A stretch of DNA of 64,000 nt. Source: Candidatus Hydrogenedentota bacterium. GTDB taxonomy: Bacteria; Hydrogenedentota; Hydrogenedentia; Hydrogenedentales; JAEUWI01. The number at the start of each line of letters is the position of its first letter. Position 1 is the stretch's first letter. Below the pieces are notes generated by a model, which was given only the letters and a program-made list of their open reading frames with translations, did not search any database and was not told the origin of the DNA. The stretch lies in the NCBI GenBank assembly GCA_019637335.1, contig JAHBVV010000028.1, positions 1-64,000 of the forward strand. The letters run 5' to 3'. This document shows, piece after piece, positions 6,704 through 54,799 of this stretch. The position numbers were made by a program, and so were the translations under genes.

Positions 6704-6945
6704 AGGCGGGGCAATCGCATTGGTAAAACTTCAGCGGTCTGACGTGCGGAACAGTTTGTGTTCTTGCTAATGGAGCCGGTTGGTATGGAGCGCCGGCGGC
6801 CCGCCGGCCTTGCACCGAAGGTGCAAGAACACGTTGCAGGAGTCCACCGACAACACGCGGCTTCTGATGCAACGGTAGCATTTCCAGAACGCTGTCTTGC
6901 GCCGGCGGCGCAATCTGCCGGCGGGCCGCCAGCGCTCCATAGTTG
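6704..6945. repeat. Family A repeat block with inverted family-D end
   Basis: The GGGGCAATCGCATT sequence at 6711-6724 is the inverted counterpart of the AATGCGATTGCCCC end at 7137-7150, so the two frame the repeat cluster like terminal inverted repeats. From about 6783 a family A palindrome (GGAGCGCCGGCGGCCCGCCG, then CTTGCACCGAAGGTGCAAG) runs into a roughly 110-base segment (6826-6945) that recurs in inverse orientation at 19915-20030. No gene is present. Confidence 0.8.
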
Positions 6946-7049
6946 AGTCTGCCGGCGGGCCGCCAGCGCTCCATAGTTGAGTCTGCCGGCGGGCCGCCAG
7001 CGCTCCATAGTTGAGTCTGCCGGCGGGCCGCCAGCGCTCCATAGTTGTA
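6914..7049. repeat. Four tandem 34-bp family A repeats
   Basis: Four near-perfect 34-bp units (starts at 6914, 6948, 6982 and 7016) each contain CTGCCGGCGGGCCGCCAGCG followed by CTCCATAGTTG. Each unit contains a GC-rich palindrome. The regular period without unique spacers excludes a CRISPR array. The block lies between the sulfatase start and the 3' end of the hydrolase-like gene. Confidence 0.9.
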
Positions 7050-7057
7050 TCTGCCGG

Positions 7058-7152
7058 CGCTCCAAAACGCTCACTTTCGTTGATTCAAGGTTTCGAATCG
7101 ACTCAAGTCTATGCCCATATACCGAGATCGAGTTTAAATGCGATTGCCCCGC
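7058..7152. repeat. Family D repeat, copy 1
   Basis: About 95 bases beginning CGCTCCAAAACGCTCACTTT and ending AATGCGATTGCCC. Copies at 36257-36350 (close) and 53090-53190 (more diverged) have the same layout and each follows a family A GCCGGCGCTCC box. The 53-kb copy is directly upstream of the RAYT gene. Copy 1 ends four bases before the stop codon of the next minus-strand gene. Confidence 0.85.
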
Positions 7153-19914: not shown

Positions 19915-20236
19915 CAACTATGGAGCGCCGGCGGCCCGCCGGCAGATTGCGCCGCCGGCGCAAGAGAGCGTTCTGGAAATGCTGCCGTTGCAGTAGTAGT
20001 CGCGTGTCTCGGGGGGACTTCGGCAACGTGTTCTTGCACCTTCGGCGCCATGCCGGCGAGCCGCCGGCGCTCCATACATTGTTCTTGCACCTTCGGCGCC
20101 ATGCCGGCGGGCCGCCGGCGCTCCATACATTAGTCTTGCACCTTCGGCGCCATGCCGGCGAGCCGCCGGCGCTCCATACATTAGTCTTGCACCTTCGGCG
20201 CCATGCCGGCGAGCCGCGGGCGCTCCATATATAAGT
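19915..20236. repeat. Family A block: inverted 110-base segment plus four tandem ~52-bp units
   Basis: Bases 19915-20030 are the inverse of 6826-6945. From 20032 four units of about 52 bases follow, each TTGCACCTTCGGCGCCATGC, CGGCGAGCCGCCGGCGCTCC, ATACATT; the last is decayed. All hold two hairpins (TGCACCTTCGGCGCCA and GCCGGCGRGCCGCCGGC). No spacers of unique sequence occur. It separates the divergent YdeP-like gene and the lipoprotein gene's terminator. Confidence 0.9.
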
Positions 20237-35812: not shown

Positions 35813-36256
35813 AGCGCCAAACTATGGAGCGCCGGCGGCCCGCCGGCCAGACCCAGCCACAAGACCCCGCCCCCGAACAACAGCCTTGAAAGCGAAATAC
35901 CACCCCAATGGAGCGCCGACATCCCTGCTGGCTCCGGCGACCACGTCGCCGAACCCGCCACTTACTGGCGGCATCCCAAAGCTCATCGCTGCACAGCACC
36001 AACAAAAAGAATTAAACCACGAATGAACACCAATAGGCACGAATAAGACCAGCACCCGAAAACGGGCTCGCGCGCATGAGCCACGTAGTGGCGGCATACC
36101 GCGGCCCAGGCGTGAGTGGAGCGAACCCAGCGTCAGCCACTTCCAACTCGGGGCGAGCGCCACATGAACCACCATCAATGTAAAAAAAAGGCGCGTGTTG
36201 GAACGTTGGCATTTCGCCTGCGGCGAATCCCTGACCTTGCCGGCACAGATGCCGGC
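35813..36256. repeat. Family A fragments and repeat-rich spacer
   Basis: CTATGGAGCGCCGGCGGCCC at 35823-35842 and a second box, CCGGCACAGATGCCGGCGCT, at 36240-36259 are family A palindromes. Between them lies a 400-base stretch without a credible gene. The region 35735-36419 holds only these and family D copy 2. Confidence 0.6.
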
Positions 36257-36350
36257 GCTCCAAAACGCTCACTATCGTTGATTCAAGGTTCCAAATCGAC
36301 TCAAGTTTACGCCCATATACCGAGATCGAGTTTAAATGCGATTGCCCTGT
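36257..36350. repeat. Family D repeat, copy 2
   Basis: CGCTCCAAAACGCTCACTAT through AATGCGATTGCCC is nearly identical to 7058-7150, with about half a dozen changes. It ends 70 bases before the DUF433 gene and again follows a GCCGGCGCTCC box. Confidence 0.88.
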
Positions 36351-52213: not shown

Positions 52214-52576
52214 CTACGTCGTGGAGGGCGGATCCAGGGCAGAGGCCAACAAGCGGTGCAAGTTACTTCGCACGGCTGCGGTGTCCTCCGGAGCGAGCGC
52301 GCCCAGGACGCCGAGGACGAGGCGGTGGTCCAGGGTAAACAGTTTGAAGCGAACAACGGAAGGCGCGGGCAGCCCCGCCGATTTCAGATCTGTAATCGCG
52401 CAATCCAGCGGCCAGGGCGCGTGACTTTGAGATGTAATCATCGCCATGACCGCGTGTCCGATGGGCGCATTGAATTCGATATCATCGGACAGAATCAAGG
52501 CGGGTCGGCGCATGCTGGACGCCCGATCCGTAAAGGGAAAGGGTACGCGGACAATCTGGAAGGGCTCAAAGCTCAC
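52214..52576 (-). CDS. MazF/PemK-like toxin
   Basis: A 120-residue protein of the PemK/MazF fold. The GTG at 52576 gives MSFEPFQIVRVPFPFTDRAS, the standard opening, then RRPALILSD, IGHAVMAMITSQSHAPWPLD and SVVRFKLFTLDHRLV. These beta-barrel proteins cleave RNA at specific sites. Its first codons overlap the antitoxin end by 11 bases. A longer frame to an ATG at 52597 is possible but lacks an SD. Length and fold match the family. Confidence 0.85.
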   Translation of the reverse strand: MSFEPFQIVRVPFPFTDRASSMRRPALILSDDIEFNAPIGHAVMAMITSQSHAPWPLDCAITDLKSAGLPAPSVVRFKLFTLDHRLVLGVLGALAPEDTAAVRSNLHRLLASALDPPSTT

Positions 52577-52796
52577 GGTAGGCCAGCTCGTCTTCATCGG
52601 AAGCCCATTCATTCAGGGTGTCCGAAAGGGCGCGCAGGTAATAATCGTCGGCGGGGAGAATACGGCGAACCTCGGCACGGCCGTCGCCAGTGATTTCCCA
52701 CTCAAGAAGATCGCCTGGTTGAACCGCAAGAGCCGTGCGGATTTCCAGGGGAATCGCCGTTTCACCCTTTGCGGAGATTCTGCCGATACAGCTCAT
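52566..52796 (-). CDS. AbrB/SpoVT-type antitoxin
   Basis: A 76-residue swapped-hairpin DNA-binding protein: SCIGRISAKGETAIPLEIRT, ALAVQPGDLLEWEITGDGRA, with an acidic C-terminal tail (WASDEDELAYREL) that would block the toxin. The ATG at 52796 has GAGGGA upstream; an ATG 15 bases earlier is close to the same site. The first gene of the toxin-antitoxin operon, probably autoregulated by AbrB binding. TTGCGA and TACAGT about 50-75 bases upstream could be its promoter. The region 51975-52213 behind the toxin shows no gene. Confidence 0.85.
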   Translation of the reverse strand: MSCIGRISAKGETAIPLEIRTALAVQPGDLLEWEITGDGRAEVRRILPADDYYLRALSDTLNEWASDEDELAYREL

Positions 52797-53032
52797 CACA
52801 ACGTCCCTCATGCCCTTCGACGCGGGTTGTGGCTTTTCCCTACTGTACGGTATGCAAGAAGAATTTCGCAAGCGCAGTATCCGAGAATTCATAACGATCT
52901 TTAACGATTCGGGTCCTGGCGCCATCGGTGTGCGCCATGGGCGATTGTCCGTAAGCGAGAAGAATGTCCTGCGGAACGAGTAACCCCAATCACCCCAATC
53001 CCCAACAACACACAAAATAATCTAAACCACCC

Positions 53033-53190
53033 CGATGGAGCGCCGGCATTCCGCCTCCGGCGGATCGCCGTCCCTGCAGGCAGAGATGCCGGCGCTCCAG
53101 CACACTCACTATCCTTGAACCAAGGGTCCAAACCGACCCACGTCTACACCCCATTGCCGTGATCGGGTTTCAATGCGATTGCCCTGTGCC
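53033..53190. repeat. Family A unit plus family D copy 3, upstream of RAYT
   Basis: GATGGAGCGCCGGCATTCCG, CCTCCGGCGGATCGC and GATGCCGGCGCTCCA (53033-53100) are a family A pair; CGCTCCAGCACACTCACTAT to AATGCGATTGCCC (53091-53190) is a diverged family D. The next gene, a RAYT transposase, starts 72 bases on. This joins both families to the transposase. Confidence 0.82.
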
Positions 53191-53262
53191 GGGATTCCGC
53201 TCAAGAAGCGAATTGCCCTATACTGGTTACAACGAGATCGAGAGGACAAAAAGGGGCACAAC

Positions 53263-53841
53263 ATGGACGACGGCTGGTATTCCCGGGGCTATCTCCCGCA
53301 TTTCGATGATCCGGAGCGTATCCAGTTCATCACCTTTCGGCTGCACGACTCCATGCCGCGCGAGGTGCTCGAACTTTATCGAGCGCAGTTGGAACAGGGG
53401 CTCATCACCGAGCAACAGCGGCTCAAGAAGATGGAGGACTACCTCGACAAGGGCTACGGCGCGTGTTGGTTGAAACAGCCGCGTATCGGCCGGCTGGTTG
53501 AGAATGCGCTGTTGCATGGAGACGGCGATCGCTACCTTCTCATCAGTTGGTGCGTCATGCCCAACCACGTCCACGCACTTATCGAGCCATTGGATGGGCG
53601 AAAGCTACGGGGCATTCTGCACACCTGGAAGTCGTACACCGCGCAGATAGCGAATTCGTGGCTGGGGCGCAAGGGCGCGTTCTGGCAGCGCGAATTTCGT
53701 GATCGCTATATTCGGAACTTCAAGCACTTTGAAGGGGTCAAGGCGTATATCGAGCAGAACCCGGTGGACGCGGGGCTGGTTGAACAGGCCATCGATTGGC
53801 CTTTCAGTAGTGCGCGATTGCGGGAGGGGCGGGAGGATTGA
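53263..53841 (+). CDS. REP-associated tyrosine transposase (RAYT, IS200/Y1 type)
   Basis: A 192-residue protein. The Y1-transposase core reads LISWCVMPNHVHALIEP (the HVH metal site), followed by LRGILHTWKSYTAQIANSWL, whose Tyr is the probable nucleophile, and FWQREFRDRYIRNFKHFEGV plus YIEQNPVDAGL, typical of RAYTs. RAYTs cut and move single-stranded REP hairpins and are usually single-copy. It is flanked on the left by family A/D and on the right by a large array of family A hairpins, which is where its substrates would be. The ATG at 53263 has AAGGGG six bases upstream. It is apparently intact. Confidence 0.92.
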   Translation: MDDGWYSRGYLPHFDDPERIQFITFRLHDSMPREVLELYRAQLEQGLITEQQRLKKMEDYLDKGYGACWLKQPRIGRLVENALLHGDGDRYLLISWCVMPNHVHALIEPLDGRKLRGILHTWKSYTAQIANSWLGRKGAFWQREFRDRYIRNFKHFEGVKAYIEQNPVDAGLVEQAIDWPFSSARLREGRED

Positions 53842-53849
53842 TGGCGGCG

Positions 53850-54715
53850 TTGGCCGGCGGGGTCGGCGGGGTCGGCGGTCCGCCGGGGTCGGGACGCCAG
53901 CGCTCCATCGGGGTGGTTTTCCGTTCTGGACGGTGTTGTTCGGGGGTGCGCTCCCTTGGGTTGGTTGGCCGGCGGGGTCGGCGATCCGCCGGAGGCGGGA
54001 CGCCAGCGCTCCATCGGGGTGGTTCTCCGTTCTTGACGGTGTTGTTCGGGGGTGCGCTCCCTTGGGTTGGATGGCCGGCGGGGACGCCAGCGCTCCATCG
54101 GGGTGGTTTTCCGTTCTTGACGGTGTTGTTCGGGGGTGCGCTCCCTTGGGTTGGTTGGCCGGCGGGGCCGCCAGCGCTCCGCCGGAGGCGGAATGCCAGC
54201 GCTCCATCGGGGGTGGTTTTCCGTTCTTGACGGTGTTGTTCGGGGGTGCGCTCCCTTGGGTTGGTTGGCCGGCGGGGTCGGCGATCCGCCGGAGGCGGGA
54301 CGCCAGCGCTCCATCGGGGTGGTTTATTCCTTCTCGACGGTGTTGTTCGGGGGTGCGCTCCCTTGGGTTGGATGGCCGGCGGGGTCGGCGATCCGCCGGA
54401 GGCGGGACGCCAGCGCTCCATCGGGGTGGTTTTCCGTTCTGGACGGTGTTGTTCGGGGGTGCGCTCCCTTGGGTCGGTTGGCCGGCGGGTACGCCAGCGC
54501 TCCATCGGGGTGGTTTTCCGTTCTCGACGGTGTTGTTCGGGGGTGCGCTCCCTTGGTTTGTTCGGCCGGCAGGGTCGGCGATCCGCCGGAGGCGGGACGC
54601 CAGCGCTCCATCGGGGTGGTTTTCCGTTCTGGACGGTGTTGTTCGGGGGTGCGCTCCCTTGGGTTGGTTGGCCGGCGGGGACGCCAGCGCTCCATCGGGG
54701 TGGTTTTCGTTGCGT
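53850..54715. repeat. RAYT-adjacent array of eight family A-type units
   Basis: Eight copies of GTTGTTCGGGGGTGCGCTCC alternate with CCAGCGCTCCATCGGGGTGG. Unit lengths are either about 81-83 or 107-110 bases, the long form having an added GTCGGCGATCCGCCGGAGGC. Reading frames of up to 350 codons cross it on both strands but are artefacts of the repeat. It starts directly after the RAYT stop. Confidence 0.93.
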
Positions 54716-54766: not shown

Positions 54767-54799
54767 CAGGGCAGCCTCCCTGCCCGGGAGGCTGCCCTG
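54767..54799 (-). terminator. Rho-independent terminator of the MFS gene
   Basis: On the minus strand CAGGGCAGCCTCC and GGAGGCTGCCCTG pair around a CGGGCAG loop and are followed by ATTCTTTTCTC. It lies 35 bases beyond the stop codon at 54834. Confidence 0.85.

Follow-up and report, generated by a model that had tools for sequence, protein, structure and literature searches.

The locus around position 53263 of the window (the whole 64,000-nt stretch of DNA that was analysed, which belongs to contig C28 of a 7.16-Mb genome in 55 contigs) is probably the REPtron of a RAYT variant with a GGAN tag, and the REPs of this variant appear also to have been captured and amplified by miniature transposons (MITEs) of the IS4-like and IS66 types. 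The gene at 53263–53841 on the plus strand (192 aa with the ATG at 53263 as start; the open reading frame could also begin at 53173) is, by its sequence, a real Y1/HUH REP-associated transposase (RAYT, TnpA-REP). The earlier note's claim of an intact Y1 transposase held up: the HUH motif is present as HVH at residues 102–104, Tyr162 lies in YIEQNP, 58 residues past the second histidine, and the Y1_Tnp domain (PF01797) was found over the Pfam cut-off (8.2e-7). The family profile of this RAYT matched the structure of E. coli TnpA-REP (4er8, E 8.6e-13), while the NCBIfam model REP_Tyr_transpos gave 76.6 bits, just below its curated cut-off of 80, which is an annotation threshold and no biological definition of a RAYT. 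The residues Y162-IEQ-N166-P167, of which Y162, N166 and P167 are invariant among nine homologues, form the Y-x3-NP motif that defines class 2 TnpA-Y1, class 3 being defined by Y-x4-Q (PMC6006769). A class 3 TnpA with a CnGA foot, prompted by the CCGA that precedes one type of REP here (F2, below), was rejected because the protein carries Y-x3-NP and CCGA is not conserved among the repeat families or the homologues. The genome contains 12 Y1_Tnp genes; identity to the RAYT of the window is 56% for the paralogue at C2:256077 and 59% for that at C2:259235. The gene is flanked by REPs in inverted orientation, which are also dispersed across the genome. Upstream of it, at 52214–53015, are two overlapping minus-strand open-reading frames (132 and 149 aa) that resemble a toxin-antitoxin pair by size and arrangement only.

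Published REPs carry the tag GT[AG]G, or CnGA in class 3, and two REP super-families, GTAG and CGTC, have been described (PMC2817692, PMC3686654, PMC3733652, PMC6006769). The canonical arrangement, a 5′ GT[AG]G lying 0–2 nt from the foot of the palindrome, is not the rule here, where GGANC occupies the foot instead. Perfect hairpins (stem of at least 7 bp, loop of 3–5 nt) were listed, with no tag assumed, around 80 RAYT homologues from public genomes of many phyla. Hairpin density was 10.2/kb within 350 bp of these genes and 1.4/kb at 1–2.5 kb, a seven-fold enrichment near the gene, and the 5-mer immediately 5′ of the stem was GGAGC 101 times (40 loci), GGACC 27 times and GGAAC 26 times. GTAG-type tags were rare in this listing, and about 1% of GT[AG]G sites near RAYT genes were followed by a hairpin, compared to 0.3–0.6% far from them, a background level for this tag. 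When GGAGCGC near RAYTs was taken irrespective of structure, 77% of the sites had all seven of seven pairs, against 12% when the 3′ arms were shuffled between sites, and five of the seven stem pairs varied. The stem was exactly 7 bp in 110 of 115 cases, with up to 12 bp allowed and 22 different stems represented, and the loops of the clade's REPs were 3–4 nt. GGAG was the commonest tag and GGAC, GGAA, GGTA and GGGG were less frequent, each followed by C. The RAYT of the window falls in a group of 89 rows with an SH-aLRT of 89 at its base, in a quick tree many of whose inner branches are weak, and the tags detected within this group were GGAN-C or a close variant; at two neighbouring RAYTs (L050 and L052), GTAGC takes the position of GGAGC. 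Detected tags came from about eleven phyla, by labels taken from record titles, some of them doubtful. At the level of sequence, this RAYT clade, patchily distributed across those phyla, thus has its own REP design of a GGAN-C tag and a GC-rich 7-bp stem. The hairpins flanking the RAYT share a foot tag, and the design is common to its homologues. The earlier note had made a shared terminal tetranucleotide at the hairpin foot the test of its proposal; there is one, but it is GGAG and not GTAG.

The fourth base of the tag varies together with one residue of the protein. Among 168 alignment columns, position 142 had the strongest association with the tag (GGAG, GGAC or GGAA; z 9.9), followed by position 144 (z 6.9). 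The counterpart of position 142 in E. coli is Q95, which lies in the stretch WQ....(E/D)(H/R)..R, for which contact with GTAG has been reported (PMC6006769, PMC8266576). His142 goes with GGAC, Met, Ala or Ile with GGAA, and mostly Gln or Phe with GGAG; the pairing of His and GGAC occurs in genes of the Reyranella type and, besides these, in Thiosymbion and in a Chloroflexi record (the unrelated loci L135 and L150). A second set of 28 previously unused paralogues from 40 genomes confirmed the association in part. Where a tag could be detected, His rows had GGAC in five of five cases, and in all four rows with Ala, Met or Ser the fourth base was A. Gln rows had GGAG and GGGG, and also GGAA three times, GGGC once and, at one locus, a mixture of GGAC and GGAG. 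The code is therefore partial. The rows depend on one another, and the association is not fully independent of phylogeny, with only two or three well-supported independent contrasts, and the signal at residue 142 was lost in a thinned, near-independent set of 15 rows, a set without power.

Within the genome, TGGAGCGCYGGC occurred 342 times compared to 8 for the reversed control, and the full hairpin pattern 445 times compared to 0. GGAGC, then GCN and the stem, is common to all of the repeat families in question, and five families were told apart by their 5′ flanks in the 1.25 Mb examined: GCGTKTT in F1 (the earlier family D), CACCCCGAT in F2 (the type of the array in the window), AAGGCTG in F3, ACSAATG in F4 and CAACTAT in F5 (the earlier family A). 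Families A and D had been reported at three further places of the window, and they are present there, near 6.8–7.1, 19.9–20.2 and 35.8–36.3 kb. The stretch 6787–7151 contains an F5 REP, four tandem 34-bp F5 REP units and the left end of an F1 element, whose terminal inverted repeat (TIR) is at 7151; an F5 REP with four tandem 51-bp F5 REP units lies at 19922–20226; an F5 REP followed by an F2-type REP (CACCCCAAT joined to GGAGCGC) lies on the plus strand at 35826–35965; and an F1 MITE, the first 210 nt of which match the consensus at 96%, lies on the minus strand at 36139–36349. F5-type REPs flank the paralogous RAYT at C2:256077–256637 and not that of the window, and by this adjacency family A belongs with the paralogue. 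Two further observations concern F2 and F3. A second F2 cluster (G000 C2:196613–198642, L113) contains six perfect GGAGC REPs, arranged as direct repeats and with a different spacer, and none of the genome's 12 RAYT-type Y1_Tnp genes adjoins it. A single-REP element, F3a, reads AAAGGCTG then GGAGC...CAGGCGGCGAAGCCGCCG over about 130 bp, with conserved arms and no recognised TIR; copies lie on G000 C1 at 33310, 149392, 219868, 239889, 430507, 494319 and elsewhere, one of them with a possible 9-bp flanking repeat.

Immediately upstream of the RAYT gene, where the earlier note had placed a family A pair and a family D unit, the sequence is instead a single inverted REP pair. On the minus strand, 53036–53099 joins an F1-type REP to an F2-type end and has a 14-bp terminal palindrome (minus strand folding at −29.5 kcal/mol, z −5.0), and the left half of an F1 element (53076–53186, minus strand; 84% identity to the F1 consensus over 110 nt) ends in the TIR CAGGGCAATCGCATT at 53186, which is unpaired. 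The F2 end of the pair is of the same type as the REPs of the array beyond the gene. This tandem array (53866–54706, minus strand) carries nine F2 REPs of the form GGAG-C-GCTGGCG-loop-CGCCGGC, starting at 53906 to 54693. The two length classes reported earlier stand, with the count of eight units corrected to nine REP starts and eight periods: from the distal end 84, 106, 84, 107, 107, 109, 84 and 106 bp, or three of 84 bp and five of 106–109 bp. The complete periods are 92–100% identical, and the classes differ by a 22–25-bp insert in the hairpin loop of the longer units; the short units form the 7-bp hairpin at an unexceptional folding energy (z about −1). There is a fair case, from these repeats, that the array grew by tandem duplication of whole 84- and 106-bp units including the spacer, and to that extent the array can be taken as a record of repeat growth, as had been suggested. 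Units of these sizes are better accounted for by unequal recombination or slippage than by RAYT insertion. Elsewhere in the window, tandem REP arrays are built from the 34-bp and 51-bp units given above. Just beyond the array, at 54767–54799, a perfect inverted repeat (14 bp, loop of 5 nt) is the likely terminator of a convergent transporter-like gene.

Many of the dispersed REP pairs are the interiors of MITEs. F1 copies, of which there are at least 39 in this genome at 91–99% identity, end sharply at CAGGGCAATCGCATTTAAAC inverted repeats of about 20 bp and are mostly 228 bp long (or 206); near-identical copies end at these TIRs and not at the REPs, and no full-length match was found in three congeners. 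The copies are bordered by 10-bp target-site duplications (75% identity compared to 32% in the shuffled control, 19 elements), and at other lengths the identity stays close to background. The ends of F3/F4 and F5 elements read GTAAYACTTTAGCSG, and F5 elements that are complete carry 8-bp duplications next to ends of the IS66 type. Across 24 GTAA-type TIR pairs, these elements among them, the 8-bp duplications had 71% identity compared to 30% in the control, with a peak at this single length, and an IS66 transposase sits between the same TIRs as those of the F3/F4 and F5 elements, which by their GTAA-type TIRs and 8-bp duplications are IS66-type MITEs. Several of the 24 pairs enclose no GGAGC REP, so IS66-type ends do not need one. 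The only DDE_Tnp_1 gene found to be bounded by F1-type TIRs is a degenerate relic (C28:81109–83174) 28 kb from the RAYT: the search for an autonomous F1 partner found nothing through the ISAs1-associated domain PF13808 and, through PF01609, only a relic with the right ends. Two nested cases, L119 3030–3572 (C3:53030–53572) and L123 17327–17869 (C4:127327–127869), have an IS66-type F3/F4 element inside an F1 element, with the target duplication of the outer element retained. In the 1.6 Mb sampled for the placement of hairpins, 56 of 125 perfect GGAGC hairpins lay between two TIRs, 24 near one and 45 beside no recognised TIR, compared to 1.1% of random positions between two TIRs and 4.4% near at least one. 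Capture by MITEs thus does not explain all of the hairpins, and a large share of them has probably spread by hitchhiking inside DDE MITEs, not through the RAYT of the window.

Fixed-length target-site duplications are a signature of DDE transposases, and HUH/Y1 transposases are not known to make any. The duplications and TIRs of F1 and F5 therefore disfavour the RAYT of the window as the source of families A and D, the role that the earlier note had assigned to it. It is unlikely that this enzyme itself spread them genome-wide by single-strand transposition, even though an F1-type half element stands directly upstream of its gene, every family has the GGAGC hairpin with its 7-bp stem and the genome holds three RAYT paralogues of the clade, since the F3/F4 elements share the fixed duplications, F5-type REPs adjoin a different RAYT and F1 copies stop at their TIRs. 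The converse proposal, that GGAGC hairpins are ordinary MITE features (terminators or structural cores) that lie near RAYTs by chance and are no RAYT substrates, is the least probable reading considered. It accords with the many hairpins inside MITEs in this genome, but the tag and the 7-bp geometry are enriched beside RAYTs of about eleven phyla, REPs occur bare in a genome of the same order, and the tag covaries with the residue aligned to E. coli Q95.

A third reading, improbable but slightly less so than either of these, places the true guide in the CTGG that precedes GAGC: GTGG-like and four nt from the stem, it would make these canonical GTRG-type REPs. The upstream consensus has C-T-G at −8 to −6, and pseudomonad REPs, which read GTGGGAGC... 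(PMC3686654), look similar. That CTG is conserved at only about 55–66%, however, and the enrichment at the foot concerns GGAGC; in L050 and L052, GTAGC keeps the GGAGC register at one nt from the stem, and the Q95-aligned residue tracks the base at position −2. The evidence favours a RAYT variant with a GGAN tag whose REPs were also taken up by MITEs.

In G047, a genome of the same order, REPs are bare, with (C)ACTG ahead of GGAGC and the stem, single or as REPINs and with no conserved arms. We infer from this that bare REPs may have come first and that, in the present genome, MITEs took up REP pairs; the opposite direction, with MITE-borne hairpins first, is possible. GGAGC hairpins number 41, 48, 127 and 23 in four relatives with a RAYT of the clade (G001, G002, G047 and G053), and 98, 84 and 14 in fragmented MAGs where a full clade RAYT was not detected (G048, G052 and G007). 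There are few in G016, G044 and G046, probably because the stems beside their RAYTs differ from the searched pattern. On the earlier note's other test, equal repeat frequency in relatives lacking a RAYT, these counts point both ways: hairpins tend to accompany a RAYT of the clade, and yet G048 and G052 have many. One 3-Mb genome (G093, that of L189) has 21 RAYT-profile matches, an unusually high number.

A mechanism that fits these features would have the RAYT bind the REP hairpin on one strand and read the tag through its stretch W141-x142...D147-R148..R151, with residue 142 helping to read the fourth base: His would read C, mostly Gln or Phe would read G, and Met, Ala, Ile or Ser, sometimes Gln, would read A. 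Single-stranded REP DNA is cleaved and rejoined in vitro by E. coli TnpA-REP, and the RAYT described here may act in the same way. The array beside the gene would have been enlarged by duplicating REP-plus-spacer units in tandem, and inverted REP pairs would have become the interiors of DDE MITEs, IS4-like with 10-bp duplications in F1 and with IS66-type ends and 8-bp duplications in F3/F4 and F5. A broader scenario, which we put forward tentatively, is that one clade shifted its tag from GTAG to GGAG and on to GGAC, GGAA, GGTA and GGGG, that the Q95-aligned residue largely sets the fourth base, and that REP pairs were captured repeatedly by DDE MITEs in Hydrogenedentota. If so, the clade would hold a natural guide-specificity code, and REPs would be able to spread without RAYT activity. 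Tag reading, choice of the cleavage site and REP dispersal have been studied mostly in gammaproteobacterial GTAG systems, and a widespread clade in which the tag has changed and a residue covaries with it offers a natural mutant series for tag recognition. REP pairs embedded in MITEs mean that REP copy number need not mirror RAYT activity, a caution for studies that take REP counts as a proxy for it. In the open-access main texts searched, neither a RAYT clade with GGAN tags nor REP pairs forming the core of DDE MITEs was found described, and both are provisionally regarded as new.

The locus resembles the RAYT REPtrons of TnpA-Y1 class 2 (groups 2/2.2 and 3/2.5; Nunvar 2010, Quentin 2018, Corneloup 2021) in its HUH and Y-x3-NP motifs, the W...D(R)..R guide-contact region, the inverted REPs flanking the gene and the REPIN-like pairs, and its short perfect palindromes are like the REPs of group 3 RAYTs. 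It differs from class 2 in having a GGAN-C tag where theirs is GT[AG]G, a fixed 7-bp stem, a [TG]CC-type loop, a variable residue 142 where theirs is a well-conserved Gln, and a conserved N-terminal W[YH]SRGYLPH motif in the clade. As in REPINs (Bertels and Rainey 2011), two inverted REPs form a dispersed unit, bare in G047, whereas many of the pairs here sit inside DDE MITEs that are flanked by target-site duplications. TIRtrons or TIRYTs (Di Nocera 2013) likewise have a RAYT-like gene within inverted repeats that are also dispersed, but those are long TIRs unrelated to REPs, unlike the short tagged hairpin with covarying stems described here. The MITEs themselves resemble those of the IS66 family, with GTAA ends, duplications of 8 bp and TIRs that also enclose an IS66 transposase, and IS4-like (DDE_Tnp_1) MITEs, with CAGGGCAATCGCATT ends and 10-bp duplications around a DDE_Tnp_1 relic; what sets them apart from both is an interior consisting of a GGAGC REP pair of the kind seen beside RAYTs.
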